In this document: piece after piece, positions 8,165-40,764 of the stretch
Position numbering within the stretch: position 1 is the stretch's first letter
Layout: every line of letters starts with the position of its first letter
NCBI RefSeq assembly: GCF_018417475.1
Contig: NZ_CP054856.1
Span: 372,001-436,000 of the forward strand
DNA length: 64,000 nucleotides
Reading direction: 5' to 3'
From: Novosphingobium decolorationis
GTDB lineage: Bacteria > Pseudomonadota > Alphaproteobacteria > Sphingomonadales > Sphingomonadaceae
The notes under the pieces: model-generated
The model's database searches: none
Seen by the model: only the letters and a program-made list of their open reading frames with translations
Told to the model about the DNA's origin: nothing
Program-made: the position numbers and the translations under genes

Positions 8165-8185
8165 CCCCTACCAAAGAAGGGGGGG
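8165..8185. promoter_or_regulatory. Shared near-palindromic motif, copy a
   Basis: CCCC-TACCAAAGAA-GGGGGGG. It lies 67 bases before the original GTG start (8253) of the TonB receptor that the IS displaced. The paralogous receptor at 36776 has its copy at exactly the same distance. It is one of six such sites in the catabolic island. Confidence 0.55.
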
Positions 8186-8247
8186 AAGTCATGGCGAACC
8201 GCGTATTCGATCCTGGACAAAAATAAACCCGATACCGGGGGAGGAAA

Positions 8248-8255
8248 CCATCGTG
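8248..8255. repeat. Target-site duplication, left of IS copy 1
   Basis: CCATCGTG directly precedes the IS end and is repeated at 10753-10760 directly after it. Eight-bp duplications are within the range known for the IS21 family. The duplicated octamer contains the GTG start codon of the receptor. Confidence 0.92.
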
Positions 8256-8360
8256 TGAGAACGGCGGAGCAATATTCGACCACGCTAGCGGCGGGATAGT
8301 CCTGCTGCGGGCGGCGTAAAAGTCGTCCACCTTGAAGCCTTTCTGCCAAGTCAGGGAGGT

Positions 8361-9867
8361 GTGGGGATCTACAGCGTGGAACTTTATCTTCAGGTCCGTT
8401 TGGCTTGCGCGGATGGCATGAGCCAGCGGGCGGCGGCGAAGCGTTTCAATGTGTCGCGCGACACGGTGCGCAAGATGCTGTCGTTTTCATCGCCACCGGG
8501 TTACCGGCGTCAATCTGTCCCGCAGCGTCCGAAGCTGGACGGGTTTGTGGCGATCATTGATGGATGGCTTGAAGGGGACCGCTGCGTCCCGCGCAAACAG
8601 CGCCATACGGCGAAGCGGGTATTCGACCGCTTGCGCGCCGAGCATGGTTTCACCGGCGGCTATACGATCATCAAGGATTACATCCGCGAGCGTGAGCAAC
8701 GCAGCCGGGAGATGTTCGTGCCGCTGGCCCACCCGGCGGGGGATGCGCAGGCCGATTTCGGGGAAGCGCTGGTGGAGATCGGCGGGGTGCAGCAGAAGGC
8801 CTACTTCTTCGCACTCGATCTGCCGCACAGTGATGCCTGCTATGTGCGGCCTATCCGGCGGCGGTGGCGGAGGCCCGGTGGACGGACACGTTCATGCCTT
8901 CGCGTTCTTCGGCGCGGTGCCGCGCTCGATCGTCTATGACAACGATCGCTGCCTTGTGGCGAAGATCCTGCCAGACGGCACGCGTAAGCGTGCCACGCTG
9001 TTCAGCGCTTTCCTGTCGCATTACGTGATCCGCGACCGCTATGCCCGCCCGGGCAAGGGGAACGAGAAAGGCAATGTGGAAGGGCTGGTTGGTTACTGCC
9101 GCCGCAATTTCATGGTGCCGATCCCGAAGTTCCCGACCTGGGAGGCCTTCAACCTATGGCTGGAGGAGCAATGCCGCAAGCGCCAGCAGGACAAGGTGCG
9201 CGGACAGAGCGAGACGATCGGTGAGCGCTTGCAACGCGATCTGGCAGCCATGCAGCCTCTGCCCGCTACACCCTTCGAGGCCTGCGATCAGACGAGCGGG
9301 CGGGTCTCCTCGCAATCCCTGGTGCGCTACAGGACCAACGATTATTCGGTTCCGGTGGCCTGGGGCCATCAGGAGGTCTGGATCAGGGCCTATGTCGATG
9401 AGGTGGTGGTCGGCTGCCGCAGCGAAGTCATCGCCCGTCATCCTCGTTGTTATGCCCGCGAGGAGGTTATCTTCGACCCGCTCCACTATCTCCCGCTGAT
9501 CGAGCAGAAGATCAACGCATTCGACCAGGCCGCGCCTTTGCAGGGCTGGGATTTGCCCGAAGCGTTCACGACACTGCAGCGGTTGATGGAAGGCCGCATG
9601 CACAAGCATGGCAGGCGTGAATATGTACAGGTGCTGCGCCTGTTGGAAACGTTCACCCTCGCCGATCTCCAGGCGGCGGTGGAACAGGCCATTGATCTTG
9701 GCGCCATCGGCTTCGATGCCGTCAAGCACCTCGCCCTGTGCCGGGTCGAACGCGTACCGCCCAGGCTGGACCTGGACGTCTATCCCTTCCTGCCACGCAC
9801 AACGGTCGAGAAGACCTTTGCCAGAGCCTATCTGAGCCTGCTCTCCGACCAGCAGGAGGCCGCATGA
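8361..9867 (+). pseudogene. istA: IS21 transposase IstA, frameshifted as sequenced
   Basis: DDE transposase of the IS21 family; the consensus has 502 residues. The GTG-started N-terminal part has a helix-turn-helix (SQRAAAKRFNVSRDTVRKML) and the start of the integrase core (QADFGEALVEIGGVQQKAYF). The frame breaks near 8850-8875, where two single bases are missing relative to copy 2 (GCGGCC against GCGGGCC, and GCCCGG against GCACGGG). It continues one frame over to the stop at 9867. Copy 2 is intact across this point, so the break may be a sequencing error. Its stop overlaps the istB start (ATGA at 9864). Confidence 0.9.
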
Positions 9868-10629
9868 GCGATCAGACCCCGGAGCTTCTTCTCGCTCACA
9901 ATCTCAAGGCACCAAGCTGCCTACGTGCCTGCGAGAGCACCACAAGCTCGCCCGGCAATGTGCCGCTGAAGGCGTCGATCATATCCGCTTCCTCGCCCGC
10001 CTTGTCGAGATGGAGATGATCGACAGGAGCGTCGTATGGTCGAGCGGCGCATCAAGGCCGCGCGCTTCCCCGCCGTCAAAAGCCTCGACAGCTTCGACTT
10101 CACCGTCATCCCCAGGCTCAACAAGATGCAGGTGCTCGAGATGGCGCGCTGCGAGTGGATCGAGCGGCGTGAGAACGCCATCGCTCTGGGGCCATCGGGC
10201 ACCGGAAAGACGCACGTAGCGTTGGGGCTCGGACTGGCAGCATGCCAGAAAGGGCTGTCGGTGGGCTTCACCACTGCGGCGGCGCTGGTCAGCGAAATGA
10301 TGGAGGCGCGCGACGAGCGGCGTCTCCTGCGCTTCCAGAAGCAGATGGTCGGATACAAACTGCTCATCATCGACGAACTGGGCTTCGTACCGCTCTCCAA
10401 GACCGGCGCCGAACTGCTGTTCGAGCTGATCTCCCAGCGTTACGAACGCGGCTCCACCTTGATCACCAGCAACCTGCCCTTCGACGAATGGACCGAAACC
10501 TTCGGATCCGAGCGTCTCACAGGCGCGCTCCTCGATCGCCTGACCCATCACGTCAGCATCCTCGAGATGAACGGCGAAAGCTATCGCCTCGCTCACAGCC
10601 GGGCCCGCAAGGCCAAAATCAGACCCTGA
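9864..10629 (+). pseudogene. istB: IS21 helper ATPase IstB, frameshifted as sequenced
   Basis: AAA+ helper of IstA that binds target DNA and licenses transposition. Relative to the intact copy at 57453-58220, two single bases are missing: a T near 9910 and a G near 10025. As a result the first about 50 codons and the remaining 197 are in different frames. The Walker A motif GPSGTGKTHVALGL and the Walker B region KLLIIDELGFVPLS are intact in the second part. The corrected length is 255 residues. Confidence 0.9.
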
Positions 10630-10642
10630 AAAGCAAGCCAAT

Positions 10643-10691
10643 GCCGGGGGGAGTGGCCCTCGGGCTACGCCCTCACGCCACTCCCCCCGGC
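10643..10691 (+). terminator. Terminator-like hairpin after istB, copy 1
   Basis: A perfect 15-bp stem (GCCGGGGGGAGTGGC with its complement) and a 19-base loop lie 13 bases downstream of the istB stop, inside the IS. The same structure is at 57391-57439 in copy 2. It probably ends IS transcription and would limit readthrough into the receptor gene. Confidence 0.6.
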
Positions 10692-10752
10692 GTGTAACAC
10701 GATGGCCTGGTTTTACGCCGCCCCATGGCCGACTTTTGCTCCGCCGTTGACA

Positions 10753-13824: not shown

Positions 13825-14976
13825 TCAAGTGCGCGCAAGGCCTCTGCCAAGTATCTCGCGCATGATCTCGCTGCTTCCCCCATAGATCCGACGCACGCGC
13901 GCGTCTCGCCAGATTCGGGCGATGGGAAATTCGTTCATGTAGCCAGCGCCGCCGTGCGCCTGGAGAGCGTTGTCACAGGCCTGCCACTGCATCTCGCTGT
14001 GCCACAACTTGGCCGCGGCGGCCTCTTCCGCGGTCAGACGGCCGGCCAGATGGCGCTGGACCAGCCAGTCCAGGTGGGCCCAGCCCACCTGCAGTTGGGC
14101 TGCGATGTCGGCGAGCGTGAAGCGGGTGTTCTGGAAATCGAGAACGGGCTGCCCGAAGGCGGTGCGCTCACGGGTAAAGGCCAGCGCCTCGTCGAAGGCG
14201 CGCTGCGCGGCGGCCTGTGCGGAAACGGCGATGCTCAGCCGCTCTTGCGGCAATTCGCCGAAGAGATGGGCCATCGCACGGTTTTCCTCCCCCACGAGAT
14301 TTCCGACCGGCACGCGCACGTTTTCGAAGGCAAGTTCGGACGTATCGGCCATCCAGTGTCCAATCTTGTCGAGGTTGCGACCGCGCGTGAAGCCGGGACG
14401 GTCCGCTTCCACCAGGATCAGCGAAAAACCCTGGCCGCCGGCTTCGGGATCGGTCCGGCACACCACGAAGATGATGTCGGCGTTCTGACCGTTGGTGATG
14501 TAGGTCTTGGCGCCGTTGATCACGTAGTCCGATCCTTCGCGTCGCGCCCGTGTGCGCAAACCCTTGAGGTCCGATCCGGCCTGGGGTTCGGTCATGGCGA
14601 TCGCCGCGATCACATCTCCTGTGACCATGCCCGGCAGCCAGCGTTCCTTGAGTTCAGGCCCGGCGTGGTGGAGCAGGTAGGGCATGGTGATGTCAGATTG
14701 CAGCGTGATGCCATCGGCCATCATCGCATAGGACACCTCCTCGTTGACCACCGTGTTGAAGCGGAAATCGAGGTTGAGGCCCCCGTATTCGGCAGGGACC
14801 CCAGGGCATAGTATTCCGGCCTCGCCGGCCTTGCGCCAGAAATCGCGCGCGATGCGTCCGCACGCCTCGAACTCGGGAATGCGAGGGGTGAATTCTCGGG
14901 CGAGGAAGCGCCGAATGCTCGCGCGGAAGGCGTGAAGGTCTTCGTCGAAGAGTAGGCTCTCGGAGCGGTCGAGCAT
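13825..14976 (-). CDS. Acyl-CoA dehydrogenase (1)
   Basis: FAD-dependent alpha,beta-dehydrogenase of acyl-CoA thioesters, 383 residues, the usual length. It shows the N-terminal helical domain, the FAD/substrate segment AIAMTEPQAGSDLKGLRT, DYVINGAKTYITNG, and the C-terminal domain with QAHGGAGYMNEFPIARIWRDARV. At the MCAD base position it has IYGGSSEIM without Glu, while a Glu occurs in the helix-G region (PQERLSIAV). This is the pattern of the isovaleryl/long-chain group and suggests a branched or bulky substrate. The ATG at 14976 follows AGGGAGC. It lies 26 bases after the stop of the second dehydrogenase, so CoA-transferase, dehydrogenase 2 and dehydrogenase 1 form a minus-strand operon. 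Confidence 0.93.
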   Translation of the reverse strand: MLDRSESLLFDEDLHAFRASIRRFLAREFTPRIPEFEACGRIARDFWRKAGEAGILCPGVPAEYGGLNLDFRFNTVVNEEVSYAMMADGITLQSDITMPYLLHHAGPELKERWLPGMVTGDVIAAIAMTEPQAGSDLKGLRTRARREGSDYVINGAKTYITNGQNADIIFVVCRTDPEAGGQGFSLILVEADRPGFTRGRNLDKIGHWMADTSELAFENVRVPVGNLVGEENRAMAHLFGELPQERLSIAVSAQAAAQRAFDEALAFTRERTAFGQPVLDFQNTRFTLADIAAQLQVGWAHLDWLVQRHLAGRLTAEEAAAAKLWHSEMQWQACDNALQAHGGAGYMNEFPIARIWRDARVRRIYGGSSEIMREILGRGLART

Positions 14977-15002
14977 CGGGGGGCTCCCTGGAAGGACAGG
15001 CG

Positions 15003-16151
15003 TCAGTTGCGGGGCAGGGTGCCTTCCAGCTTGGCAATGATGGTCAGCATGATCTCGTCCGCGCCCCCGCCAATCGAACTCAGGCGCCCGTCGCGGTAGA
15101 ACTGGGAGACGTAGTTGTCGGCGGTGTAGCCCATGCCGCCCCAGTACTGGAGGCAGGAATCGCTGACTTCGCGCATCAGGCGCCCGGACTTGAGTTTGGC
15201 CATCGAGGCGAGCCGCGTCACCTCGTGACCCGCGACGTACTCGTCCACGCCGCGATAGGTCAGCGCGCGTAGCGCCTCGACCTCGCTGCGCAGTTCGGCG
15301 AGGCGGAAATGGATCGCCTGATTGTCGAGCAGGGCCTTGCCGAAAACCTTGCGCTGGCGGGCGTATTCGATCGTCTCATCGATCATCCGGTCGAGCGTGC
15401 GCAGGTTTCGCGCCGCACCCCAGAGGCGTTCCTCCTGGAATTGCTGCATCTGGTAGACGAACCCCTTGCCCTCCTCGCCGATGAGGTTGCGGCGCGGCAC
15501 GCGCACATCGTCGAAGAAGAGTTGGGCCGTATCCGAAGACAGCATGCCCATCTTGTCGATCTTGGCCCGGGTAATGCCGGGCAGGTCGAGCGGAACGATG
15601 ATCAGGCTCTTGTTGCGGTGGACCGGTCCATCGCCGGTGTTGACGAGAAGACAGCACCAGTCGGCCTGGAGGCCATTGGTGATCCACATCTTGGTGCCAT
15701 TGATGACGTAGTCGTCGCCGTCAATTCGGGCGCTGGTGCGCAGCGAGGCGACGTCCGATCCCGCGCCAGGCTCGCTTACCCCAATGCAGCCCACCAGTGT
15801 TCCGGCGATGGTCGGGGCAAGGTATTCGGCCTTGAGTTCGCTCGAGCCGAAGCGGGCCAGGGCGGGCGTACACATGTCGGTCTGCACCCCGATGCCCAGC
15901 GGCACACCGCCGCAATTGGCCTCGCCCAGCGCCTCGGCCATGACCAGCGAATAGGTGAAGTCGAGACCAAGCCCGCCGTAGTCCTCCTCGTACTTGATGC
16001 CAAGCAGGCCCAGTTCGCCCAGCTTGGGGAACAATTCGTGCGCGGGGAACATGCCGGCGCGCTCCCATTCGGGCACATGGGGGTTGATCTCTTCGCGGAC
16101 GAAACGCTGCACGGTCTCGGCCATCAGGCGGTGTTCATCGGTGAGGATCAT
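15003..16151 (-). CDS. Acyl-CoA dehydrogenase (2)
   Basis: Second FAD-dependent acyl-CoA dehydrogenase of the operon, 382 residues. Seen are IGVSEPGAGSDVASLRT, DYVINGTKMWITNG, and the C-terminal QYWGGMGYTADNYVSQFYRD followed by SIGGGADEIM, again without Glu at the MCAD base position; QEERLWGAARN could supply it from helix G. The frame is open upstream to 16409, but the ATG at 16151 overlaps the CoA-transferase stop (ATGA) and starts the conserved MILTDEHRLMAETVQRF. The two dehydrogenases differ enough to act on different chain lengths or as a heteromer; both are untested possibilities. Confidence 0.93.
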   Translation of the reverse strand: MILTDEHRLMAETVQRFVREEINPHVPEWERAGMFPAHELFPKLGELGLLGIKYEEDYGGLGLDFTYSLVMAEALGEANCGGVPLGIGVQTDMCTPALARFGSSELKAEYLAPTIAGTLVGCIGVSEPGAGSDVASLRTSARIDGDDYVINGTKMWITNGLQADWCCLLVNTGDGPVHRNKSLIIVPLDLPGITRAKIDKMGMLSSDTAQLFFDDVRVPRRNLIGEEGKGFVYQMQQFQEERLWGAARNLRTLDRMIDETIEYARQRKVFGKALLDNQAIHFRLAELRSEVEALRALTYRGVDEYVAGHEVTRLASMAKLKSGRLMREVSDSCLQYWGGMGYTADNYVSQFYRDGRLSSIGGGADEIMLTIIAKLEGTLPRN

Positions 16152-17323
16152 GGCATCTGCTCCGGTTCGAGGCCGAGTTCGTGCGCGACGCTGGCCGAAT
16201 GTTCGCCGATCCGCGGTGCATGGCAAACCTCCTCGGGGCATCCGGCGGAGAAGCGGACCGGTCCGCGCACTTCGCGGTAGGTGCCCTCGCTGGGGTGTTC
16301 GCGCTCGCGGAAGAGGCCCGAAGCGGCCAGCTGGGGGTCTTCGAGCAGGTCGTGCAGCGAGTTGATCCGGCTGGCCGGGATGCTGTTTTCCGCGAACAGC
16401 GCGAGCCATTCCGCGGTGGTCCGCTCGGGCAGGCGCGAGGCCAGCGCGGTGTAGAGTCGGTCGGCGTTTTCACGTCGCGACATGAGGTCGGTAAGTCCCG
16501 GTTCCTCGAGAATCTCGGACATCTCGAGAAGTTCGAAGACGCGGATCCAACGGTTGTCCTGGTAGGGGGCGACGACGATGTAGCCATCCTTCGTGGGCAA
16601 GGGCTGTCGGGTCGGATCGAGCTGGCGGGTGTAGCCGATCGGGCCGATCGGCGGCACAAAGGTCTCCTCGTAGAGGTGATCCAGCAGGTTGAAGCTGACC
16701 AGCGATTCCAGCATCGGAACCTCGACCATCTGGCCCTCACCGGTGCGCAGCCGGTGGATGATCGCGGCGAGGACGGCATAAGCGCCATGCAGGCCCGATA
16801 CCTTGTCGGCCATGGCCATCGGTACGAAGCGAGGCGCGGGATTGGCGTCCACCATCGGCAGCAGCGAGGCGATGCCCGAGGCCGCCTGGATGATGTCGTC
16901 ATAGGCCGGCTGACCGGAACTCGGGCCACGCGTATCGAAGCCGGTGCATTGCACGTAGACGATGTCCGGACGCAGCGCGCGCACGGTTTCGTAATCGAGC
17001 TGCGCGCGTTCGGTGGCGTCGGGACGAATGTTGTGGATCAGCACGTCGCTCGTCGATATCAGGCGTTCGAGTGCATGGCGTCCCTTCGGCGTCTTGATGT
17101 CCCAGTCGACTGACCGCTTGCCCCGGTTCATGCGCAAGTGCAATCCGCCCATGAGTTTGGTGTGCGACGACTTGCCGATGTTGCGCGAGGCATCGCCGCC
17201 GCGTGGTTCGACCTTGATTACGTCGGCGCCGAGGTCAGCCAGGATCTGCGTGCAATAAGGGCCGAAGATCACGGTCGTCATGTCCGTGATCCGGATCCCC
17301 TCGAGAATCGCTTTTTGCTTCAT
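16148..17323 (-). CDS. CaiB/BaiF family (class III) CoA-transferase (1)
   Basis: Transfers CoA from one thioester to a free carboxylate, making the acyl-CoA for the dehydrogenases encoded after it. 391 residues from the ATG at 17323. The conserved N-terminus EGIRITDMTTVIFGPYCTQI and LADLGADVIKVEPRGGD are followed by SVDWDIKTPKGR. The family catalytic Asp is expected in the YVQCTGFDTRGPSSGQPAYDD segment. An upstream in-frame ATG exists at 17374 but has no good ribosome site. Its stop overlaps the next start by 4 bases. It diverges from the LAL regulator at 17616, with a shared motif between them. Confidence 0.92.
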   Translation of the reverse strand: MKQKAILEGIRITDMTTVIFGPYCTQILADLGADVIKVEPRGGDASRNIGKSSHTKLMGGLHLRMNRGKRSVDWDIKTPKGRHALERLISTSDVLIHNIRPDATERAQLDYETVRALRPDIVYVQCTGFDTRGPSSGQPAYDDIIQAASGIASLLPMVDANPAPRFVPMAMADKVSGLHGAYAVLAAIIHRLRTGEGQMVEVPMLESLVSFNLLDHLYEETFVPPIGPIGYTRQLDPTRQPLPTKDGYIVVAPYQDNRWIRVFELLEMSEILEEPGLTDLMSRRENADRLYTALASRLPERTTAEWLALFAENSIPASRINSLHDLLEDPQLAASGLFREREHPSEGTYREVRGPVRFSAGCPEEVCHAPRIGEHSASVAHELGLEPEQMP

Positions 17324-17528
17324 GTCCGAGCCGGTCCTTTCGATCCGCTTCTCTGCTGTAATGTCTTTGGGCATGGGCCCGGGTGCTTCGGCCAGCGGCG
17401 ATGGAACGAGGCGGTCGGGAAGGGCCGGCGAAGGTGCTTCGCGGCGCGGTCTTTCCTCATCCCCATCGGTGCGTGCTGGTGGGTCGCACAGTCTTGAGTG
17501 TCCTGATCGCCGCTCTTCACACCGCCTG

Positions 17529-17547
17529 CCCCCTCCTTTCGGAGGGG
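17529..17547. promoter_or_regulatory. Shared near-palindromic motif, copy b
   Basis: CCCCCTCCTTTCGGAGGGG, a nearly perfect inverted repeat. It lies 68 bases before the LAL regulator start, in the divergent region with the CoA-transferase operon (205 bases from that start). It could mediate autoregulation. Confidence 0.55.
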
Positions 17548-17615
17548 TGGTTGCTTGCAATTCATGATTACCTGGTTTCAGATGCATCGCCAGAGAACAA
17601 GAACGGGAGAGTCAG

Positions 17616-20018: not shown

Positions 20019-20062
20019 ACGGCCCGTCGGCCAACCGCCAATCCCCCGGAAGGAACTCCCGC

Positions 20063-20869: not shown

Positions 20870-20870
20870 T

Positions 20871-22424: not shown

Positions 22425-22456
22425 ACCGCGCGCACGCCCGGCAGGGCTGTGACGCA

Positions 22457-25838: not shown

Positions 25839-25843
25839 GGCAC

Positions 25844-29215: not shown

Positions 29216-29236
29216 CATTCAAGCGAGGAATTTTTC

Positions 29237-30445: not shown

Positions 30446-30461
30446 AAGGAAAGCTGAAATC

Positions 30462-32633
30462 ATGACCACGATCCACACCTCTCTCGACGAGGCGGGCATC
30501 GCGCTCTGGCAGGTCGATGTTCCGGGCCACGCGTTCAACGTGCTGACGCCTGAGTTCTTCGAAGATCTAGACCGGGCCATCGACGACGTGGCTGCCAACC
30601 CGGCCGTGCGCGGCGTGATCCTCACCTCGGGCAAGGCCTCAGGTTTCATGGCGGGCGCCGATGTCGAGCAGATCCTCGACATGCAGGCCGGTGGGCTGAC
30701 ACCGGCACAAGGCGCCGCCTGGGCAATTGCCAACGGCAGCGTGCTGCGCAAGCTGGAGACCTGCGGCAAGCCGGTCGTCGCCGCGATCAACGGGCTGGCG
30801 CTCGGCGGTGGGCTCGAACTGGCGCTGGCCTGCCACCGGCGCGTCCTGCTGGCCCGCGCGGACATTGCGATCGGATTACCCGAAGTGACGCTGGGCCTTC
30901 TGCCCGGTGCCGGCGGCACCCAGCGCCTCGCCCGCATGCTCGGCATCGAGAAGGCGCTGCCTCTCCTTCTCGAGGGAAGGCGCCTCGATCCTGCGAAAGC
31001 CCATGCGACGGGGATCGTCGAAGACCTGGAGGACAGCGAGGAGGCGCTTCTCGCCCGCGCGCGCGAATGGCTCCTTGCTGGGCCGGCCGGAGTGCAGCCC
31101 TGGGACGTCAAGGGCTACCAGATCCCGGGAGGCGCGGGTCCTCTGGCGCCGCACGCCGCCCGCAGTTTCCAGGCCCGGGCCAGCCAGTTGCGGGCGCGCC
31201 AGGGGCGCTATCCCGCCCCAATCGCGATCCTCTCGGCGGTCTACGAGGGCACCCAGGTGGCGATGGACGTCGGGCTGAAGATCGAAGCCAAGTATTTCGG
31301 CACGCTGATCGGTGGGAAGGTTTCGGGCAACCTCGTGCGCGCCTTCCTGCGCCAGAACCGGGCCCGCAAGCGGGATCTGGCCGCGTCGGGGCACGAACCG
31401 CTGGAGGTTGGCCGTCTTGGCGTGATCGGCGCAGGCATGATGGGAGCTGGCATCGCCAACGTGGCGGCCGGCGCCGGGATCGACGTCGTGCTCCTCGACA
31501 CGAGCGCTGAAGCCGCCCAGCGCGCGCAGGACCACGCAGCCAGGCTGCGCGCGAAAGAGGTCGAGCGCGGACAGCGCAGCGAAGAATCTGCCCGCGAAAT
31601 CGTCGCACGGATTCGTCCGACCGCCGATCCGGCTGGTCTTTCGGGCACAGACCTCATCATCGAGGCGGTTTTCGAGGATCGGGACATCAAGGGCGCGGTT
31701 TACAAGGACGCGCTAGCCGGGCTCGCCCCGGGCGGCGTGCTGGCGTCCAATACGTCGACCCTTTCGATCGGCAGCCTTGCGCAAGGGTTGCCCGACCCCT
31801 ACCGCTTTATCGGCATGCACTTCTTTTCACCGGTCGAGCGCATGCCACTGGTGGAGATCATCGCCGGGCCCGAGACCTCTCCGGCGACGATGGCCGATGC
31901 TTTCGCGCTGGCGGGGCGCCTGCGCAAGACGCCGATCCTCGTTCATGACAGCCCTGGCTTTTATACGAGCCGCGTGTTCTGCACGTATATCGACGAGGCG
32001 ATGGCGATGCTGCGCGAAGGCGTGTCGCCCGCACTCATCGAGAACGCCGCGCGCGAGGCGGGCTTCCCCGCACCACCGCTGGCAGTGACCGACGAGGTTT
32101 CGCTCGACCTCCAGAAGCGGGTGATCGAACAGGCCCAGCGCGACGGCCTCGATGCGCGGTTCCTGCGGGCCCATGCCGAGCCGGTGGTCGAGGCAATGAA
32201 CGCAAGGGGACGTCTTGGCCGCAAGACGGGTGGCGGATTCTATACCTTTACCGACGAGGGTAAGCATCTGTGGGAAGGGCTCGCCGATCTGTTCCCGCTG
32301 GCCGAGAGCCAGCCTGCCGCAGACGATGTCGCCAAGCGCTTGCTCTACATTCAGGCGCTTGAGAGCGCTCGATGCCTGGCTGAAGGGGTGATTGACGACG
32401 AGGCGAGCGCAGACCTCGGCTCCGTGCTCGGGATCGGTTTTCCGGCCTGGACGGGCGGCGCGCTTTCGCTCATCTCGACCGTCGGGGTCGACGCCTTCGT
32501 GGCCGATTGCACCCGCTTTGCCGACCGGGCTGGCCCGCGCTTCCATCCCGATCCTGCGGCAATCGAAGCCGTCCGCACCGAAGCCGAACGGGTCCGTCAG
32601 GTCCGCCCTGTCCTGGCGGGGGAAGACGCATGA
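30462..32633 (+). CDS. Bifunctional enoyl-CoA hydratase / 3-hydroxyacyl-CoA dehydrogenase (FadJ/FadB-like)
   Basis: Two-step beta-oxidation enzyme, 723 residues. Residues 1 to about 200 are a crotonase domain (SGFMAGADVEQI, AAINGLALGGGLELALACH, GLPEVTLGLLPGAGGTQRL with both catalytic Glu). From about 318 comes the NAD-binding 3-hydroxyacyl-CoA dehydrogenase domain (GVIGAGMMGAGIAN), with ASNTSTLSIGSLA and FIGMHFFSPVERMPLVEII. C-terminal domains contain GRKTGGGFYTF. The length matches FadB/FadJ. GAAAGGAAAG precedes the ATG. Its stop overlaps the SDR start (ATGA). Confidence 0.96.
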   Translation: MTTIHTSLDEAGIALWQVDVPGHAFNVLTPEFFEDLDRAIDDVAANPAVRGVILTSGKASGFMAGADVEQILDMQAGGLTPAQGAAWAIANGSVLRKLETCGKPVVAAINGLALGGGLELALACHRRVLLARADIAIGLPEVTLGLLPGAGGTQRLARMLGIEKALPLLLEGRRLDPAKAHATGIVEDLEDSEEALLARAREWLLAGPAGVQPWDVKGYQIPGGAGPLAPHAARSFQARASQLRARQGRYPAPIAILSAVYEGTQVAMDVGLKIEAKYFGTLIGGKVSGNLVRAFLRQNRARKRDLAASGHEPLEVGRLGVIGAGMMGAGIANVAAGAGIDVVLLDTSAEAAQRAQDHAARLRAKEVERGQRSEESAREIVARIRPTADPAGLSGTDLIIEAVFEDRDIKGAVYKDALAGLAPGGVLASNTSTLSIGSLAQGLPDPYRFIGMHFFSPVERMPLVEIIAGPETSPATMADAFALAGRLRKTPILVHDSPGFYTSRVFCTYIDEAMAMLREGVSPALIENAAREAGFPAPPLAVTDEVSLDLQKRVIEQAQRDGLDARFLRAHAEPVVEAMNARGRLGRKTGGGFYTFTDEGKHLWEGLADLFPLAESQPAADDVAKRLLYIQALESARCLAEGVIDDEASADLGSVLGIGFPAWTGGALSLISTVGVDAFVADCTRFADRAGPRFHPDPAAIEAVRTEAERVRQVRPVLAGEDA

Positions 32634-33382
32634 GCGACATCCTCTCGCTGCAAGGCAAGCGCGCGCTGGTGACGGGAGCATCGTCCGGTTTGGGGCGTCA
32701 TTTCGCCGGGGTTCTGGCTCGAGCCGGGGCCGAGGTCGTCGTTGGTGCGCGCCGGACGGAGCCCCTTGATGCCCTGGTCGCCGAACTGAGAGGAGCGGGG
32801 CATGTGGCCTCGCGCGTTGTGCTCGATGTGTGCGACGAGAGTTCGGTCATGGCCGCGCTCGTAGGCTCGGACTTCGACATCGTCATCAATAACGCGGGCG
32901 TGACGATCACCTCGCCCGCGCTGGAGACTTCGCTCGACGACTGGAATCGGGTTCTCTCAACCGATCTCACCGGTGTCTTCCTTGTCGCCCGCTGCGCCGC
33001 GCAGGGGATGCGAGCCTCGGGACGCGGTGGGGCGATCGTCAACATCGCCTCGATCCTCGGCCACCGCGTGGCGGGCAGCTTGTCCGCCTACGCGACGGCC
33101 AAGGCCGGGGTGGTGCAGCTTACCCGCAGCCTCGCGCTCGAATGGGCGCGCCACGGCATTCGCGTAAACGCGCTTTGCCCGGGATATATCGAGACCGATC
33201 TCAATGCGGACTTCTTTGCCAGTGAGGCGGGCACCGCGCTGATCCGGCGCGTGCCGCAGCGCCGTCTGGGCAGAGCCGAAGAGTTGGACGGCCCACTGCT
33301 TCTGCTCGCATCGGACGCCGGTTCCTACCTGACCGGTGCGGATATCTGCGTCGACGGGGGACATCTGGTCTCCTCGCTCTGA
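32630..33382 (+). CDS. Short-chain dehydrogenase/reductase (SDR)
   Basis: Classical NAD(P)-dependent SDR of 250 residues. It has the cofactor motif TGASSGLGRH, NNAGV, the Ser in VNIASILGHR, the catalytic Tyr-Lys in SAYATAK and the C-terminal LTGADICVDGG. It is translationally coupled to the FadJ-like gene by a 4-base overlap and ends the operon that starts at 24408. It may oxidise a ring or side-chain hydroxyl that the bifunctional enzyme cannot use, such as a 3-hydroxyacyl-CoA with a bulky or 2-methyl group; this is inferred from context. Confidence 0.93.
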   Translation: MSDILSLQGKRALVTGASSGLGRHFAGVLARAGAEVVVGARRTEPLDALVAELRGAGHVASRVVLDVCDESSVMAALVGSDFDIVINNAGVTITSPALETSLDDWNRVLSTDLTGVFLVARCAAQGMRASGRGGAIVNIASILGHRVAGSLSAYATAKAGVVQLTRSLALEWARHGIRVNALCPGYIETDLNADFFASEAGTALIRRVPQRRLGRAEELDGPLLLLASDAGSYLTGADICVDGGHLVSSL

Positions 33383-33421
33383 TCAGGAGCCTTCTCAACA
33401 AAATTTCATCGGAATCGCCGT

Positions 33422-33442
33422 CCCCCTGCTTTGGGATGGGGG
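33422..33442. promoter_or_regulatory. Shared near-palindromic motif, copy d
   Basis: CCCCC-TGCTTTGGGAT-GGGGG. It lies 62 bases before the second esterase start and 39 bases past the SDR stop. Confidence 0.55.
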
Positions 33443-33504
33443 ATGGCCTCGAGAACCGGGCCAGACTTCAGCCAACAAAAAAGCAAGAACATCGGGGAGG
33501 GGCC

Positions 33505-35313
33505 ATGAGAGCCTGTTCATTGGTTCGCACGTGCGTCTGGCTGGCGTGCGCCGGAGCGCCGCTGGCGTACGGCACTCCGGGCCGTGTCGAGGTCGCCTGG
33601 GCGGGAGCCGGAGACGAGGGCGCCCGATGCTCAGCCCTTGCGCGGAACCTGCTGTCCCGCGAACTCGGCGTGCCTGTCGATTTTGAGGCACCGCGCATCG
33701 AGACCGGAGAATGGGAAGGGCAGGCGCTTCCCCGCCATTGCCGGATCGCAGGCCGGATCAATCCCCGTACCAGCCCTGTGGACGGGCGGGACTATGCGAT
33801 TGCCTTCGTCCTGCGCCTGCCGGTCGGGGGGGCTTGGAACGGCCGCTTCGTGCAACTGGGCGGTGGCGGTTCCAACGGAGCAACTCCCACAGCGCTCGAT
33901 CACGTCTTTGCCTCGGACACCACGCCGCTCCTTCGCGGCTTCGCGGTGATTGATACCGACGGTGGGCACAACGCGGCGAACGCCGATCCCGAAGCGGGGG
34001 GATCGGCCGCCTTCGGGCGCGATCCACAGGCCCGGCGCGATCACTTCTTCAACGCGTACGACATGGTCGCGCGCGTCGGGAAATCGCTGTCCGCGCAGTT
34101 CTATGGCGCGCCGATGCATAGCTATTTTGTCGGCTGTTCGGAAGGAGGGCGCGAGGCGCTCCTGATGGCGCAACGCTTCCCCGACCACTTCGATGGCGTC
34201 CTTGCCGGGGCTCCACAGTTCCTGCAGCCCATGCAGTCGTTGTCCTCGGTCCACGGCCTGCAAGCGCTGGCGAAGGAGGCTCGCGCCCGCGGGTTGCTCG
34301 ATCCCGACGGACAACCCGCCATCCACAAGGTCTTTTCGGATGGCGATCTCCTGCTGGCCGCGAACGCCATCGCGCGGGCCTGCGATGGCGCGGACGGCCT
34401 CGTCGATGGACTTGTCTCCAACTACCGGCAATGCAGTGAACATCGTGTCGTCGCCCAGCTTCGCACCGTGACCTGCCCAGGGGAAAAAGAGGCGAGCTGC
34501 CTTCTCCCTGGCCAAGTGACCGCCCTGCGCACCTTGCACGCGCCGGTACGCAACGCGTCGGGTGATCAGCTTTATCCGGGCTATCCCTGGGACACTGGAA
34601 TCACCGCGCGCCGCGCGGGCTTTCGGGCCTGGTGGCTGGGTGATTACGCGAAGCTAAAATCCGATTCGATCCGGTTGCACTTTTCCTCGAACATGCTGCG
34701 CATGGTCTGGCACGATCCGGCCCGGCCCTTCGCGTTGAAGCAGGGGGCCGCGATCGCGCTGGGCTATCCTTATGCCAGGAGCCCGGCCGATCCGGTCCGG
34801 GCCTGGCCGGCGCAGAGCGGCAATCCCGACGATGCCGCGGGCATCGCCATGATCAACGACACGCCGGACCTCGATGCCTTCCGTGCACACGCGGGCAAGT
34901 TGCTCCTGTGGGCCGGCGCGGCCGACGCCACCCACTCGCTCTATCAGACGCAGGGCTACGTTGACCGCCTGGGGAAGCGCTACGGAACGCAGCGCGGCAA
35001 CTTCGCGCGCTTCTTCGTTGCCCCCGGGGTCGGCCATTGCGGCGGAGGTCCCGGCCCCGAGAAAGCGGATCTGCTCGGCGCACTGGTGAAGTGGGTCGAA
35101 GAAGACAAGGCGCCGGAAGCGATCGTGGCGCGCGGGCATGTGCCTGGCGAGGAAGCCAACGAAGCCTCCCCCCTTGCTCCAGGTGCGAGAAACGGACTCG
35201 GCGGAACCTACACACGTCCGCTCTGCGCCTATCCCGCCCATGCGCACTATCGAGGCGGTCCGATTGACCAGGCTGCCAGCTTTTCCTGCACCCAAGCGGA
35301 GACGACCCTATGA
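33505..35313 (+). CDS. Tannase/feruloyl esterase family protein, secreted
   Basis: Second tannase-family serine esterase, 602 residues. A signal peptide (MRACSLVRTCVWLACAGAPL) puts it in the periplasm or outside; no lipobox is evident. The nucleophile elbow is VGCSEGGREALLMAQ, the acid is expected in LWAGAADATHSL, and the His in APGVGHCGGGPGP. Paired Cys residues CSA and HC fit the tannase disulfide next to the catalytic triad. GGGGAGGGG precedes the ATG at 33505. It is only distantly similar to the esterase at 25844, so the two may cut different ester bonds of one substrate. It overlaps the MFS gene by 4 bases. Confidence 0.9.
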   Translation: MRACSLVRTCVWLACAGAPLAYGTPGRVEVAWAGAGDEGARCSALARNLLSRELGVPVDFEAPRIETGEWEGQALPRHCRIAGRINPRTSPVDGRDYAIAFVLRLPVGGAWNGRFVQLGGGGSNGATPTALDHVFASDTTPLLRGFAVIDTDGGHNAANADPEAGGSAAFGRDPQARRDHFFNAYDMVARVGKSLSAQFYGAPMHSYFVGCSEGGREALLMAQRFPDHFDGVLAGAPQFLQPMQSLSSVHGLQALAKEARARGLLDPDGQPAIHKVFSDGDLLLAANAIARACDGADGLVDGLVSNYRQCSEHRVVAQLRTVTCPGEKEASCLLPGQVTALRTLHAPVRNASGDQLYPGYPWDTGITARRAGFRAWWLGDYAKLKSDSIRLHFSSNMLRMVWHDPARPFALKQGAAIALGYPYARSPADPVRAWPAQSGNPDDAAGIAMINDTPDLDAFRAHAGKLLLWAGAADATHSLYQTQGYVDRLGKRYGTQRGNFARFFVAPGVGHCGGGPGPEKADLLGALVKWVEEDKAPEAIVARGHVPGEEANEASPLAPGARNGLGGTYTRPLCAYPAHAHYRGGPIDQAASFSCTQAETTL

Positions 35314-36647
35314 ACGCTTCCCTTTCCACCGGGCACGCGGACTCAGGCGATCGGCCTTCAGCGGGCGTGCCTTACCTGTTGGTCGGGATGATGTTCCTGA
35401 CATACGCATTCAGCTACCTTGATCGTCAGATCGTGAACATCGTGGCCGAGCACATGAAAACGGACCTCGATCTAGCCGACTGGCAGATCGGGGCGATGAG
35501 TGGACTGGGCTTCGCGCTTCTCTACACGACGCTGGGCCTGCCCGTCGCGCGCCTTGCCGAACGTACCGATCGGGTGAACATCATCACCGCCGCGCTCATG
35601 GTCTGGAGTGGGTGCACCGCGCTGTTTGGCTTGGGCCGTAATTTCATCGAGGTTTTCGCGGCGCGCATCGGGGTTGGCCTTGGCGAAGCCGGTGGCAGTC
35701 CTCCGGCGATGTCGATGATCGCGGACGCCACGCCGCGTGCCTACCAATCCCGCGCGCTTGCGCTCTACAACCTGGGCGTGCCGATGGGAGCTCTTCTGGG
35801 GATGGTGCTGGGCGGTTTCGTGGTCGATGCGCTGGGCTGGCGCTGGGCGTTCTGGATCGTCGGGCCTCCGGGCATCCTGCTCGCGATCCTGATCCGGATG
35901 CTCCTGCGTGACCCGCGTGGCAGGGCGGATGCCGAGGCGAGCAAAGCCGTGCGCAGTCAAGACACGGTTCCCTCGCTGGGCGAAGTGGCCGCCAGCCTGC
36001 GGCGCAACACCGCGTTCTGGTGGATCGCGGCGGGTGCCGCGCTGACCACCTTCGTGGGCTATGGCCAGCAGACGTTCTACGCCTCGTTTTTTCTGCGCAA
36101 CCATGCGGACCAGCTGGACGACCTTGCCAAGGCGTTGGGTCTTGCCGGGCCGACGACGGTCCTTGGCATCGGTCTTGGCATCGCCTTCGGTCTGGGAGGG
36201 GCTATCGGGACCATTCTGGGCGGGCAACTGGGCGACCGCTGGCGCTCGCCCCACGCCTATCTGTGGGTTCCCGCGCTGGGCAGCGCGCTGGCGGCCCCAC
36301 TCTACATCGCGACCTTGGTCTTGCCATCGGCAGGCTTTTCGTTGGCGTTGCTGGTTGTGCCCGTCGCGCTCAAGAGCATGTGGTACGGGCCGATCTACGC
36401 CGCCGTGCAGCGCATGACGCACGCCCGTTCGCGGGCCACGGTGCTTGCCATCTTCCTCTTTCTTCTCAACGCGCTGGGGCTGGGTTTCGGACCGCTTTCG
36501 ATCGGCCTCATCAGCGATTGGCTGGCCCAGTCGATGGGCGAGGCGCAAGGGCTGCGCTGGGCGCTCATCGCGGTCACCATCGTCAGCCTCGCCTCCAGCC
36601 TGTGCTTCTGGGCGGCCAAAGGGCGTCCAGGGGAAGTTCCAGGGTGA
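35310..36647 (+). CDS. MFS transporter
   Basis: Twelve-helix major facilitator permease of 445 residues in the inner membrane. It starts with YLLVGMMFLTYAFSYLDRQI, the DRQI form typical of sphingomonad MFS proteins next to catabolic genes. The loop 2-3 motif GLPVARLAERTDR and GVGLGEAGGSPPAMSMIAD follow. Its start overlaps the esterase stop, so it probably imports the acid or alcohol released by that enzyme. The exact substrate cannot be read from the sequence. Confidence 0.93.
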   Translation: MNASLSTGHADSGDRPSAGVPYLLVGMMFLTYAFSYLDRQIVNIVAEHMKTDLDLADWQIGAMSGLGFALLYTTLGLPVARLAERTDRVNIITAALMVWSGCTALFGLGRNFIEVFAARIGVGLGEAGGSPPAMSMIADATPRAYQSRALALYNLGVPMGALLGMVLGGFVVDALGWRWAFWIVGPPGILLAILIRMLLRDPRGRADAEASKAVRSQDTVPSLGEVAASLRRNTAFWWIAAGAALTTFVGYGQQTFYASFFLRNHADQLDDLAKALGLAGPTTVLGIGLGIAFGLGGAIGTILGGQLGDRWRSPHAYLWVPALGSALAAPLYIATLVLPSAGFSLALLVVPVALKSMWYGPIYAAVQRMTHARSRATVLAIFLFLLNALGLGFGPLSIGLISDWLAQSMGEAQGLRWALIAVTIVSLASSLCFWAAKGRPGEVPG

Positions 36648-36686
36648 TCCGGGCGCGGGGATCCGCGCCGTACCGGAATTTTCAGG

Positions 36687-36708
36687 CCCCACCTCAAAGA
36701 GGGGGGGG
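36687..36708. promoter_or_regulatory. Shared near-palindromic motif, copy e
   Basis: CCCC-ACCTCAAAGA-GGGGGGGG. It lies 67 bases before the second receptor start, exactly the distance seen for its paralogue's original start (copy a). In both places an A-rich AAAAATAA stretch and a GGGGAG-type ribosome site follow. Confidence 0.55.
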
Positions 36709-36775
36709 CAACCAAAGCGACCGGACGACAATTTCCGGAAATCAAAAATAACATTACGATCTGGGGAGACCTGAA

Positions 36776-39529
36776 ATGCGACTTTACACCTGTCTGCTCG
36801 CGTCTGCGGCCTGCATCGTTCCGGGAGTAGCTCTGGCCCGACAAGAGGTGCCACCAGCTTCGGCGCCTGCACCGGAGCAAACGATTGCGCCCAAGGAGGC
36901 CGAGGAAATCATCGTCACCGGTTCGCGCGCGATCACCAACGGTGAACAGGCCCCCACGCCCGTCACCGTGCTCAGCTCCGCCCAGCTCAAGGACGCCGCA
37001 CCGAACCTGAACGAGGCGTTGCGCCAGTTGCCGCAGCTGACGGCTTCGGGCTCTCCGGCCACGCCCAATCCCACCATTGGCGGTGGTCCGAGCACGCAGA
37101 ACACGCCGAACTTGCGCAACCTGGGAGCCAACCGCACGCTCACCCTTCTCAATGGGCGTCGACCGGCGATCTTCGGTGGTTCAGGACTGGTTGACGCGGG
37201 CGTGTTTCCGCAATCACTGGTCAAGCGTGTCGACATCGTGACCGGTGGTGCCTCGTCGGCCTACGGTTCGGACGCGATCGCGGGCGTGGTCAACTACATC
37301 ATCGACACCGACTACCAGGGCCTGACGGCCGAGGCCCGCCAGAGCCTCTCGACTTACGGCGACGCCGCCGCACGGGCCTTTGAGATTGCAGGAGGCGCGA
37401 ACCTCGGCTCGCGAGGGCACATCGTGGCCAGCGTCAACTACAACAGCCAGGACCTGCTCCAGGGCGAAAAACGCGACTATGCTCGGGCTGGATGGTCGAC
37501 CATGCCCAATCCCAACTCGGGTCAGCCCGGTGAGCCCGATCTCCTGTTCCGCGAGAACGTGACCATTACCACTGCGACCTTCGGGGGCCGGATCATCACG
37601 CCGGGCCTCAACAATATCCAGTTCGATGCCGCGGGCAACCCGATCCCCTACACACCTGGCAGTCTGGTTTCGGGTGCCTTGCAGGTGGGTGGCGACGGCG
37701 CCCGTTACGCGCAGCCGCTCAGCGCCGACGTGAAGAACGTGAGCGGCTATGCCCATGCGAAGTACGAAATCTTCGACGGCGTCGAGATCTTTGCCGAAGG
37801 CAGCTACGGCCATGCCAAGTCACGTAGCCCCAACCTCTACTTCTTCAACCTTGGCGGCAACGCCTACCGTATCCAGCGCGACAACGCTTACCTTCCGGAC
37901 TCGATAGCCCAGCTCATGGACGAGAACGGACTTACCTCGATCCAGCTCGGCAAACTCGACCGCAACTACGGGCGCAACGTCACGTTCTTCGAGAGCGATA
38001 CCTACAGCATCTCGACCGGCCTCAACGCGAAGCTCTGGGGGAACTGGGAACTGGACGTCTATGGTACGCATAGTGTTTCCAAGACCCGCTACGGCGCCGA
38101 GAACAGCCGCTACCAGGCGCGCTCACGCCTGGCGACCGACGCCGTGTTCGGACCGGACGGAACGATCGTGTGCCGCTCCACCCTCATGGATCCGGACAAC
38201 GGTTGTGTCCCGACCGATCCCTTCGGTGAGATTCCGCTGAGTGAGGCCCAGCGCGGCTACCTCACCGGCACCTCGATCGCGCGCGCGACGACCAAGCAGG
38301 ACGTTGCCGCGGCCTCGATGCACGGAACGCTCCTCGAAGGCTGGGCCGGTCCGATCAGCGCGGCGCTCGGCGCGGAATATCGCAAGGTCTCGCTCGATCA
38401 GGTCGCTGATCCCACGGGCATGTCGTTTGGCTGGAGTGCGGGCAACCTCAGTTCCAGCGCGGGGTCCTACAACGTCAAGGAGGTCTTCGGCGAAGTGCAG
38501 GTGCCGCTCCTGAACGACGTCCCGCTGGCGCGTGACCTCAGCCTCAACGCCGCGATCCGGCGCACCAACTACAGCACCAGCGGCAGCGTCACGACCTGGA
38601 AAGTGGGCGTTACGGATGAAGTCTTCGATGGCTTCCGCCTGCGCGGCAGCCTTTCGCAGGACATCCGCGCGCCGAATATCAACGAACTGTTCGGGGGCAT
38701 CGTGCGCTCGGTCACCACGATCAGCGATCCGGATTTCAACGGCCAGACGTTCCTCAACATCTTCACCTTCTCGGGCAGCAACACCGCGCTTCGCCCCGAG
38801 AAGGCCCGGACCCTGACTTTCGGCGCGGTCTACCGGCCCGACTGGCTGCCCGGCCTGGGCATGTCGGTCGATTACTACCGGATCAAGCTGTCGGATTCGA
38901 TCACACAGGTGGGCTTCCAGACCGTCGTCGACCAGTGCGATGCGGGCAACGCCCTGTTCTGCGGCCTGATCACCCGCGACGATGCGGGCGTGCTGACCGA
39001 AATCAACGCTCCGCTCCAGAATGTCCAGTCGGGCCGGGTCTCGGGCATCGATTTCGAGGCCAACTACGACACAGCACTGGGCGATGGCTTCCTGCGCCTG
39101 CGCGCCATCGGCACCTATCTCGACACCTACCAGTTCACCAACCCGGGCGCGCCTACGGTCGAGCAGGCGGGAACGCCGGGCCTGCCGCGCTGGCGGGGCA
39201 ATCTCTCGGCGACCTACTCGAGCGGGGGCCTCTCGCTTTCGGTCCAGGAGCGTTACATCGGCAAGACGACCCGCGTGGTCCTGCCGATCACGGTGGATGA
39301 CAACAGCGTAAAGAGCGTCTTCTACACCAACGCGACGCTGCGCTACGCGTTCGATGAGGGGACGTTTGGGAACCCTGAGTTCTTTTTCAACGTGAACAAC
39401 CTGTTCAATCAGAAGCCTCGCGTGGGGCGGACCAACTCGACGAACCTGGGCTTCAATCAGGCCTACGATGGATCCCTCTACGACGTGATTGGGCGCTATT
39501 TCACGCTGGGCCTGCGCATTCGGTACTGA
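36776..39529 (+). CDS. TonB-dependent receptor, paralogue of the IS-disrupted one
   Basis: Outer-membrane receptor, 917 residues, with signal peptide MRLYTCLLASAACIVPGVAL. It is very similar to the protein at 10758 over its full length: both have ITNGEQAPTPVTVLSS, LRNLGANRTLTLLNGRRPA, the long loops, and a NNLFNQ-PRVG-TNS motif before the C-terminus. The barrel ends in TLGLRIRY. The start follows GGGGAG. It likely takes up the same ester as its partner and can replace it where the IS has blocked expression. A CoA-transferase gene follows after 53 bases. Confidence 0.95.
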   Translation: MRLYTCLLASAACIVPGVALARQEVPPASAPAPEQTIAPKEAEEIIVTGSRAITNGEQAPTPVTVLSSAQLKDAAPNLNEALRQLPQLTASGSPATPNPTIGGGPSTQNTPNLRNLGANRTLTLLNGRRPAIFGGSGLVDAGVFPQSLVKRVDIVTGGASSAYGSDAIAGVVNYIIDTDYQGLTAEARQSLSTYGDAAARAFEIAGGANLGSRGHIVASVNYNSQDLLQGEKRDYARAGWSTMPNPNSGQPGEPDLLFRENVTITTATFGGRIITPGLNNIQFDAAGNPIPYTPGSLVSGALQVGGDGARYAQPLSADVKNVSGYAHAKYEIFDGVEIFAEGSYGHAKSRSPNLYFFNLGGNAYRIQRDNAYLPDSIAQLMDENGLTSIQLGKLDRNYGRNVTFFESDTYSISTGLNAKLWGNWELDVYGTHSVSKTRYGAENSRYQARSRLATDAVFGPDGTIVCRSTLMDPDNGCVPTDPFGEIPLSEAQRGYLTGTSIARATTKQDVAAASMHGTLLEGWAGPISAALGAEYRKVSLDQVADPTGMSFGWSAGNLSSSAGSYNVKEVFGEVQVPLLNDVPLARDLSLNAAIRRTNYSTSGSVTTWKVGVTDEVFDGFRLRGSLSQDIRAPNINELFGGIVRSVTTISDPDFNGQTFLNIFTFSGSNTALRPEKARTLTFGAVYRPDWLPGLGMSVDYYRIKLSDSITQVGFQTVVDQCDAGNALFCGLITRDDAGVLTEINAPLQNVQSGRVSGIDFEANYDTALGDGFLRLRAIGTYLDTYQFTNPGAPTVEQAGTPGLPRWRGNLSATYSSGGLSLSVQERYIGKTTRVVLPITVDDNSVKSVFYTNATLRYAFDEGTFGNPEFFFNVNNLFNQKPRVGRTNSTNLGFNQAYDGSLYDVIGRYFTLGLRIRY

Positions 39530-39582
39530 GGAGGCGTCCGGCAACTTTCGGCAATTCAAGGAGAACAGATGGAGACGGCTCG

Positions 39583-40755
39583 ATGACGGATCCCTTCGCT
39601 CGCACCCGCGCACAGGCCGATGACGGGGCAGGGGCGATGCGTCCCGGTGGTCCGCTGGAGGGCTTGCGCATCCTTGAGCTCGACGCGATCGGGCCGGTGC
39701 CGCTCTGCGGGATGCTCCTGGCCGACATGGGCGCAGACGTGGTGCGGATCACGCGTCCGGGCGGGCAGAGCGCTTATGCCGACGTAGGTGCGGCCATCTT
39801 GCACCGTGGCCGCACGAGCGTCGAACTCGATCTCAAGTCTGCGGCGGGACGCGACGGGGTTCTTGCTCTGGTGGCGCGCACCGATGCGCTAATCGAGGGG
39901 ATGCGTCCAGGCGTCATGGAGCGCCTGGGCCTCGGTCCGGACATATGTCTGGAGCGGGCACCCCGGCTTGTCTATGCGCGCGCGACGGGATGGGGGCAAA
40001 ACGGGCCGTTGCATGCGCGGGCCGGGCACGACATCAACTATCTGGCCCTCACCGGCGCACTCCACGCGCTGCGCGGGAGCGACGGGCGTCCGCAGGCCCC
40101 GCTCAACCTCGTGGGCGATTATGCGGGAGGTGCGCTCTATCTCGCCTTCGGGATCGTCAGCGCGATACTCCATGCCCGCAAGAGTGGAGAAGGGCAGGTG
40201 CTCGACGCGGCAATTGTCGATGGTGTGAGCCACCTCATGGGCCTGTTCCACGCCCTGCTTGCAAATGGGCAGTGGTGTGAGCAGCCGCAGGCCAACCTGC
40301 TCGATGGCGGAGCCCCCTTCTACCGTTGCTATGCCTGCGCCGATGGCGGGCACGTGGCCGTCGGCGCGCTGGAGCCGCAGTTTTATGCCGCGCTGCTGAC
40401 GGGACTGGGCCTTGATGTCGCGCTTTATCCCCAGCATGAACGAAGCCGCTGGCCAGCTCTGGAAACGGCGCTCGCGCAGGCTTTTGCGCGTGCCCCACGG
40501 GCGCACTGGGAAGCAATCTTTGCGGAAATCGATGCCTGCGTGACGCCGGTCCTCACGTTGTCCGAGGCGATGGAGCATCCCGCGAACGTGGCGCGGGATG
40601 TGTTCGTGGAGCGCGATGAGGTGTGGCAGTCCGCACCCGCGCCGCGTTTCTCGAGGACGCCAGGGCGCATCGCGAGGGGACAAGAGCTCTCTTTGAAGGA
40701 TGCGCTGGATCTTTGGAAAGCTCCGTCGGACCGCTCGCGAGGATCCCCCTCCTAA
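39583..40755 (+). CDS. CaiB/BaiF family CoA-transferase (2)
   Basis: Class III CoA-transferase or alpha-methylacyl-CoA racemase-like protein, 390 residues. It shows EGLRILELDAIGPVPLCGML, ADMGADVVRITRPGG, ELDLKSAAGRDGV and GHDINYLALTGAL, where the catalytic Asp of the family occurs in the GHDINY motif typical of racemase-like members. A methylacyl-CoA racemase role (AMACR group) is therefore as likely as CoA transfer. A five-codon reading frame at 39569 with a good ribosome site (AAGGAG) ends at 39586 and overlaps this start, suggesting translational coupling. The 3' end overlaps motif copy f. Confidence 0.88.
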   Translation: MTDPFARTRAQADDGAGAMRPGGPLEGLRILELDAIGPVPLCGMLLADMGADVVRITRPGGQSAYADVGAAILHRGRTSVELDLKSAAGRDGVLALVARTDALIEGMRPGVMERLGLGPDICLERAPRLVYARATGWGQNGPLHARAGHDINYLALTGALHALRGSDGRPQAPLNLVGDYAGGALYLAFGIVSAILHARKSGEGQVLDAAIVDGVSHLMGLFHALLANGQWCEQPQANLLDGGAPFYRCYACADGGHVAVGALEPQFYAALLTGLGLDVALYPQHERSRWPALETALAQAFARAPRAHWEAIFAEIDACVTPVLTLSEAMEHPANVARDVFVERDEVWQSAPAPRFSRTPGRIARGQELSLKDALDLWKAPSDRSRGSPS

Positions 40756-40764
40756 AGGTGGGGG
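40745..40764. promoter_or_regulatory. Shared near-palindromic motif, copy f
   Basis: CCCCCTCCTAAAGGTGGGGG. It overlaps the last codons and stop of the CoA-transferase gene and lies 69 bases before the ATG at 40834 (84 before the alternative at 40849). Confidence 0.55.

Follow-up and report, generated by a model that had tools for sequence, protein, structure and literature searches.

A 64,000-base stretch of the Novosphingobium decolorationis genome, referred to below as the window, carries a set of short near-palindromic dyads in front of the transcription units of a catabolic island. These dyads are most probably the operators of a regulator encoded by the island itself, a MalT-like, ATP-binding regulator of the LuxR type (LAL), which would activate the island together with its own gene. 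The dyads have a common form, are restricted to the island and are conserved in a second species.

Dyad sites of the catabolic island

The initial annotation had listed six near-palindromes, each 57-69 bases before the start codon of its unit, three of them between divergent genes, and had noted none in the housekeeping part of the window. Reading of the sequence at each position confirmed all six as well as the intergenic placement of three copies between divergent genes (Table 1), while the count itself was too low, as a seventh dyad at 8038-8055 had been overlooked. The spacing also holds: measured from the 18-base core, the six sites lie 58, 64, 68, 70, 70 and 71 bases before the start codon, and these figures deviate from the earlier ones only through a different site boundary.

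Table 1. Positions of the dyads and of associated features in the window
Feature	Position	Strand	Start codon, gap (bases)	Remarks
Dyad 7, ACCCTCC-TATA-GGATGGG	8038..8055			between alkyl-sulfatase gene and receptor 1; matrix score 20.2
Receptor 1 dyad	8165..8182		original start GTG 8253, 70	
IS21-type element	8254..10752	+		IstB_IS21, 214.7 bits; inserted at receptor 1 start codon
Catabolic block shared with N. profundi	13827..43119			blastn blocks of 75.8-81.5% identity; family scans
LAL gene dyad	17530..17547		ATG 17616, 68	orthologous site in N. profundi
LAL regulator, 800 aa	17616..20018	+		GerE domain 739-794, MalT-like TPR region; proposed binder of the dyads
Aldehyde dehydrogenase operon dyad	24332..24349		ATG 24408, 58	orthologous site in N. 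profundi
Tannase-family esterase 2 dyad	33423..33440		ATG 33505, 64	orthologous site in N. profundi
TonB receptor 2 dyad	36687..36704		ATG 36776, 71	weakest of the set; orthologous site in N. profundi
Acyl-CoA dehydrogenase 3 (ACAD3) dyad	40746..40763		ATG 40834, 70	identical in N. profundi over 18 bases

Each dyad consists of two GGA(G/T)GGG half-sites, read from the spacer outward, with a spacer of four bases. Among the 24 half-sites of 12 sites, position 1 was G in 21, position 2 was G in 20 and position 3 was A in 19; position 4 was occupied by G (21) or T (3), positions 5 and 6 by G in all 24 and position 7 by G in 23. The spacer is mostly A/T; it contains TTT or AAA, which may point either way with respect to the gene. 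Half-sites with a GGA(T/G)G core were found to precede several units, as expected of a MalT-type LAL regulon.

The seventh dyad is separated by 190 bases from the likely start (7847) of the minus-strand gene beside it, for which alkyl-sulfatase domains were found in Pfam; the other six lie nearer to their genes. On its other side the LAL dyad faces a divergent CoA-transferase gene with a likely start at 17323, and the alcohol dehydrogenase gene that diverges from the aldehyde dehydrogenase operon has its likely start at 24255, 76 bases from the dyad at 24332. The ACAD3 dyad shares bases with the 3' end of the CoA-transferase gene lying upstream, and an alternative in-frame ATG 15 bases further is possible for ACAD3.

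The loose pattern CCCC-N(1-6)-(TTT or AAA)-N(1-6)-GGGG gave seven matches in the window, namely the six sites and an irregular one in the housekeeping part (59951); 100 first-order random sequences contained 0.63 on average and 3 at most. With the 18-mer CCCCTCCTTTGGGAGGGG and up to three mismatches, five matches were obtained in the window versus 0.08 expected, the receptor 2 site (36687) lying beyond this limit. A symmetrised matrix built from the six window sites and their five orthologues scored 17.6-25.6 at the six sites; in fifty first-order random 64-kb sequences the maxima averaged 10.8 and reached 16.6 at most. The best place in the window outside the island reached 8.5 (61830). When each site was left out of the matrix together with its orthologue, the six still scored 17.5-24.7, the top unlisted place was always 8038 (19.6-21.0) and the next in the window reached 8.6-9.6; the leave-one-out value of 17.5 for receptor 2 belongs to a register shifted by one, the first register giving 10.5. 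A pattern with an unspecified spacer was rejected as too loose, since it gave 10 matches in the window with up to three mismatches versus 8.7 expected; with up to two mismatches, 28 places in the own genome and 29 in N. profundi were found, and the reversed control gave 51 and 55. An AT-rich spacer is therefore required for specificity.

In the complete genome of 4.75 Mb, all five matches to CCCCTCCTTTGGGAGGGG with up to two mismatches were located within the island, and the reversed control gave none. A site-model search with E up to 10 returned six sites for N. decolorationis and five for N. profundi, again all in the island; this model was built from the sites themselves, scored 150 of 1413 candidates in the own genome and 150 of 1440 in N. 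profundi, and missed the seventh site. Scattered copies, which had been named in the initial annotation as the outcome that would speak against an operator, did not appear in either scan. With up to three mismatches nine matches were obtained in the own genome (five with 0-2 mismatches, four with three and outside the island), the reversed control also giving nine. Three matches with three mismatches outside the island of N. profundi likewise correspond to background level (14 in all for the reversed control). One match with three mismatches is common to both genomes (3407346 in the own genome, 542842 in N. profundi) and falls within open frames in both.

The LAL regulator and conservation in Novosphingobium profundi

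The LAL carries a C-terminal GerE/LuxR-type DNA-binding domain (PF00196, 49.2 bits, cut-off 23.5). Its score against TPR_MalT (PF17874) was 30.6 bits with an E value of 2.7e-07, which is below the curated cut-off of 45, and the protein is not a MalT equivalog (NCBIfam NF003420, 79.1 bits versus a cut-off of 537). No ATPase domain was found in Pfam at significance; residues 31-41 read APAGYGKSALL, a putative Walker A motif. The LAL was the sole regulator recognised among the scanned proteins of the block shared with N. profundi, and two minus-strand frames at 20011-20944 were assigned to no family in the scan.

An orthologue with 82% identity over 800 residues is present in Novosphingobium profundi EaN21-2, the single one in the genome collection. 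A protein search with 8000 scored candidates gave two close LALs (window and N. profundi), one at 30% and 51 weaker ones; at E<=1e-40, the LAL was found in one of 298 family genomes, namely its own. The catabolic block has its counterpart in N. profundi (Table 1); for receptor 1 the sole match was to the receptor 2 region of that species (74.1%), and the comparison of the window with 63 kb of N. profundi gave no further match at E 1e-10.

The dyad is kept in N. profundi at all five shared promoters, i.e. those of the LAL gene, the aldehyde dehydrogenase operon, esterase 2, receptor 2 and ACAD3. Between the two species the 18-base sites are identical at 82 of 90 bases, versus 326 of 585 in the flanks (60 bases before and 57 after each site); well-kept flanks occur too, after the aldehyde dehydrogenase site (50 of 57) and before the LAL site (47 of 60). 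A comparable cluster of sites was absent from all 396 other family genomes scanned with up to two mismatches. Scattered matches at this threshold were present in 52 of the 396, with a maximum of four per genome (G075, where three of the four are one repeated variant inside 0.7 kb), and the reversed control gave scattered matches likewise, up to three per genome.

The regulon operator, offered in the initial annotation as the simplest reading, is thus supported by the genome restriction and by the conservation of the site at the five shared promoters. For the LAL as the binder, towards which that annotation had also pointed, the co-inheritance of regulator and sites, the MalT-type palindrome and the parallel dyads at unrelated LAL clusters described below are all favourable, and we infer from them that the LAL probably binds the dyads. 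The rarity of the LAL matches that of the motif and was counted for the LAL in this respect, the co-inheritance being based on two genomes.

Dyads of other LAL lineages and comparison with known systems

Distant LALs were located at 15 places in 9 of 336 class genomes and at 12 places in 11 of 396 family genomes, the own genome being excluded from both sets. Wider stretches were examined for 16 of these 27 places and for genome G193. The LALs of G042, G381 and G388, the first two from the same genus as the window, show 83-86% identity among themselves and 26-27% to the window LAL. In all three genomes the dyad CCATAC-N4-GKATGG stands by the LAL gene and recurs once in its vicinity. Genome-wide and with up to one mismatch, 2 of 2 places (G042), 2 of 2 (G381) and 2 of 3 (G388) were at the LAL locus; the controls gave 0, and no place was obtained for the genomes of the window and of N. 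profundi. In G042 the dyad stands 67 bases before the presumed LAL start codon (TTG), in G381 66 bases, compared to 68 in the window. The cluster of G042 includes genes for enoyl-CoA hydratase, CoA ligase, desaturase, thiolase, ADH and ALDH. At the LAL promoter of G388, the dyad (L096:1311-1326) directly adjoins the presumed TTG; bases may have been deleted or misassembled there, or the start may be wrongly placed.

For the LAL of G193, with 24% identity to the window LAL, all five places of CCTATC-N6-GATAGG (three exact, two with one mismatch) fall in a 12.7-kb region around the LAL gene, in front of genes for a PF00144 protein, a TonB receptor, the LAL and an MFS transporter. As the reversed control gave 7 places in this genome, the signal lies in the clustering and not in the number. 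In G138, whose LAL is 54% identical to that of G193, one of three places belongs to the LAL locus, and the control gave 3 places.

A de novo dyad search in the 16 stretches revealed a GGA-type family in two (L094, L096), with a third (L095) found by pattern; the remaining 13 gave mostly GC-rich families and no GGA-type dyad. Upstream of the 12 plus-strand distant LALs, the described kinds of dyad were present in five (L082, L083, L084, L087, L090) and a C/G-rich perfect dyad in L088; the same spelling was found upstream of none of the 15 minus-strand ones. G542 (L074) carries two perfect dyads upstream of its LAL with GGGGA(T/G) half-sites, like the core of the E. coli MalT box, and G564 and G660 (L067/L068) have in common perfect dyads of another kind, TCTTTC-N6-GAAAGA and CGTCGA-N5-TCGACG. 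In view of these upstream results, a single half-site grammar common to all LALs was dropped. The lack of a GGA-type dyad at most of the other distant LALs examined, some of them with dyads of another kind, counts against the operator reading. That other LAL lineages carry their own dyads at their own clusters argues for the dyads of the window being LAL operators.

The system would be one more of the known MalT/AlkS-type regulons. In the published account of the ACSP50_3915 regulon of Actinoplanes sp. SE50/110, a MalT-like LAL activates its region through the palindrome TCATCC-N5-GGATGA over the -35 (PMC7567727). As in the window, the regulator gene is located inside a large region, and many transcription starts of the Actinoplanes region are preceded by a palindrome with inward GGA(T/G)G half-sites (PMC7567727). 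That account gives six-base half-sites, a five-base spacer and 17 sites, unlike the GGAGGGG half-sites and four-base spacer found here; the gene content also differs, activation in Actinoplanes was demonstrated by deletion and overexpression, and the -35 overlap comes from mapped starts, whereas here it is predicted from sequence (PMC7567727). Action on maltose genes is not shown in the same account either (PMC7567727).

The GGA(T/G)G core is also shared with the MalT regulon of E. coli and Klebsiella, described as controlled by an ATP-dependent LAL activator with a site at the -35 (PMC7567727, PMC4381067), and this core in the half-sites is a further argument for the LAL as the binder. According to the same sources the E. 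coli MalT box is GGGGA(T/G)GAGG (PMC7567727), and, unlike the window dyads, the boxes are asymmetric, form direct repeats of GGA(T/G)GA and serve maltose genes (PMC7567727, PMC4381067); the window LAL is also far below the MalT equivalog cut-off. AlkS of Pseudomonas putida GPo1, of the LuxR/MalT type as well, is reported to have an inverted repeat both at the promoter of its catabolic operon (PalkB) and at its own promoter, with positive feedback as is likewise proposed here (PMC8784404). The likeness concerns the layout. The AlkS repeat spans 20 bases and is described as LuxR-family-operator-like (PMC8784404), and no enzyme of the alkane hydroxylase pathway served by AlkS was recognised in the island. 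Among open-licence PMC papers, none was recognised as dealing with the motif or with an LAL regulon in Novosphingobium.

Proposed regulation and alternative explanations

A -10-like signal was scored with generally known weights. Pooled over 15 sites (six from the window, five orthologues and four from G042 and G381, mutually non-independent), the score peaks 21-24 bases after the 16-base core, and 0 of 5000 rotations reach the observed signal. The window six together with two other LAL promoters were equalled by 130 of 5000 rotations, and the six window promoters alone, equalled by 826 of 5000, gave no significant signal. Because of this last result, an overlap of the dyads with the -35 is regarded as plausible and not as shown, the window itself pointing to it weakly.

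For LAL binding, activation, inducer and exact promoter geometry we infer the following scheme. A substrate or intermediate of the pathway, perhaps an ester-derived alcohol or acid, would bind the TPR sensor as the inducer, and the ATP-bound LAL would multimerise. Two GerE domains could then hold the two half-sites beside the -35 and recruit RNA polymerase. In this way uptake (TonB receptors, MFS), ester cleavage, alcohol and aldehyde oxidation and beta-oxidation would be switched on jointly, the dyad in front of the LAL gene would create a positive feedback, and the dyad at 24332 might act on both divergent genes.

That the sites are regulon operators bound by another transcription factor, encoded elsewhere and perhaps a repressor released by a pathway intermediate, is unlikely. 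The dyad form and promoter position would suit many factor families, activator and repressor are indistinguishable from sequence, and at its distance of 58-71 bases from the start the site might equally serve to block the polymerase. Such a factor, however, must exist in both genomes, yet none of the 396 other family genomes clusters its sites, while the LAL travels together with them; the GGA(G/T)G core shared with MalT boxes and the parallel dyads at other LALs also speak against it.

Two explanations without a DNA-binding protein are far less probable. An RNA element, i.e. a hairpin of the 5' leader or a terminator/attenuator, is very improbable: as RNA the best sites could fold into a stem of seven pairs and a loop of four bases, but among 12 sites (10 distinct) no pair is changed on both sides, 84.3% of cells pair, which equals the shuffles, no T-run follows the sites, and the TTT/AAA centre occurs in either orientation. 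The dispersed extragenic repeat without regulatory role, considered as the alternative in the initial annotation, would account for short near-identical copies in intergenic DNA and can hardly be maintained, as the whole-genome scans (up to two mismatches; site model) place copies in the island only. Moreover, only the dyad is common to the copies and their flanks differ, the distance to the start codon is narrow, and the sites form short conserved islands in N. profundi.

If the dyads are LAL operators, the regulator, operators and full target set of an uncharacterised catabolic island could be read together; two TonB receptors, a transporter, two esterases and a beta-oxidation set would belong to one pathway, and a positive-feedback switch is predicted. 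The dyads at three LAL lineages with 24-27% identity have the half-sites GGAGGGG, GTATGGG/GGATGGG and RGATAGG. We tentatively suggest that sphingomonad catabolic islands might be self-contained switch-plus-pathway units, each with a private LAL and a private, differently spelled dyad operator, an idea that is newer than the regulon itself. If such private pairs exist, the LAL recognition code and the target lists of orphan pathways could be read from genomes. The parallel dyads at other LAL clusters would make it possible to test by which code this little-studied class of regulators recognises DNA, and they would provide independent regulator-promoter pairs.

The enzymes encoded by the shared block comprise acyl-CoA dehydrogenases, CoA-transferases, thiolases, GST, ADH, ALDH, a CoA ligase, a FadJ-like protein and SDR, and the block also holds the LAL, two tannase-family esterases, an MFS transporter, a TonB receptor and an APH-domain protein. 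The IS21-type element is flanked on both sides by CCATCG, and the receptor 1 frame now opens within it (ATG 10725), 2.5 kb from its own dyad. Since this insertion separates the frame from the dyad, receptor 1 is probably out of the regulon, unless the element provides a promoter. The TonB receptors at 10725-13505 and 36776-39529 are paralogous with one dyad each, and in the N. profundi stretch compared only a receptor 2 counterpart is present. The APH-domain protein (42060-43130) is encoded after an acyl-CoA dehydrogenase gene and scores far under the NCBI aminoglycoside phosphotransferase cut-offs; presumably it resembles the acyl-CoA-pathway kinases of the ACAD10/11 type rather than a resistance gene.
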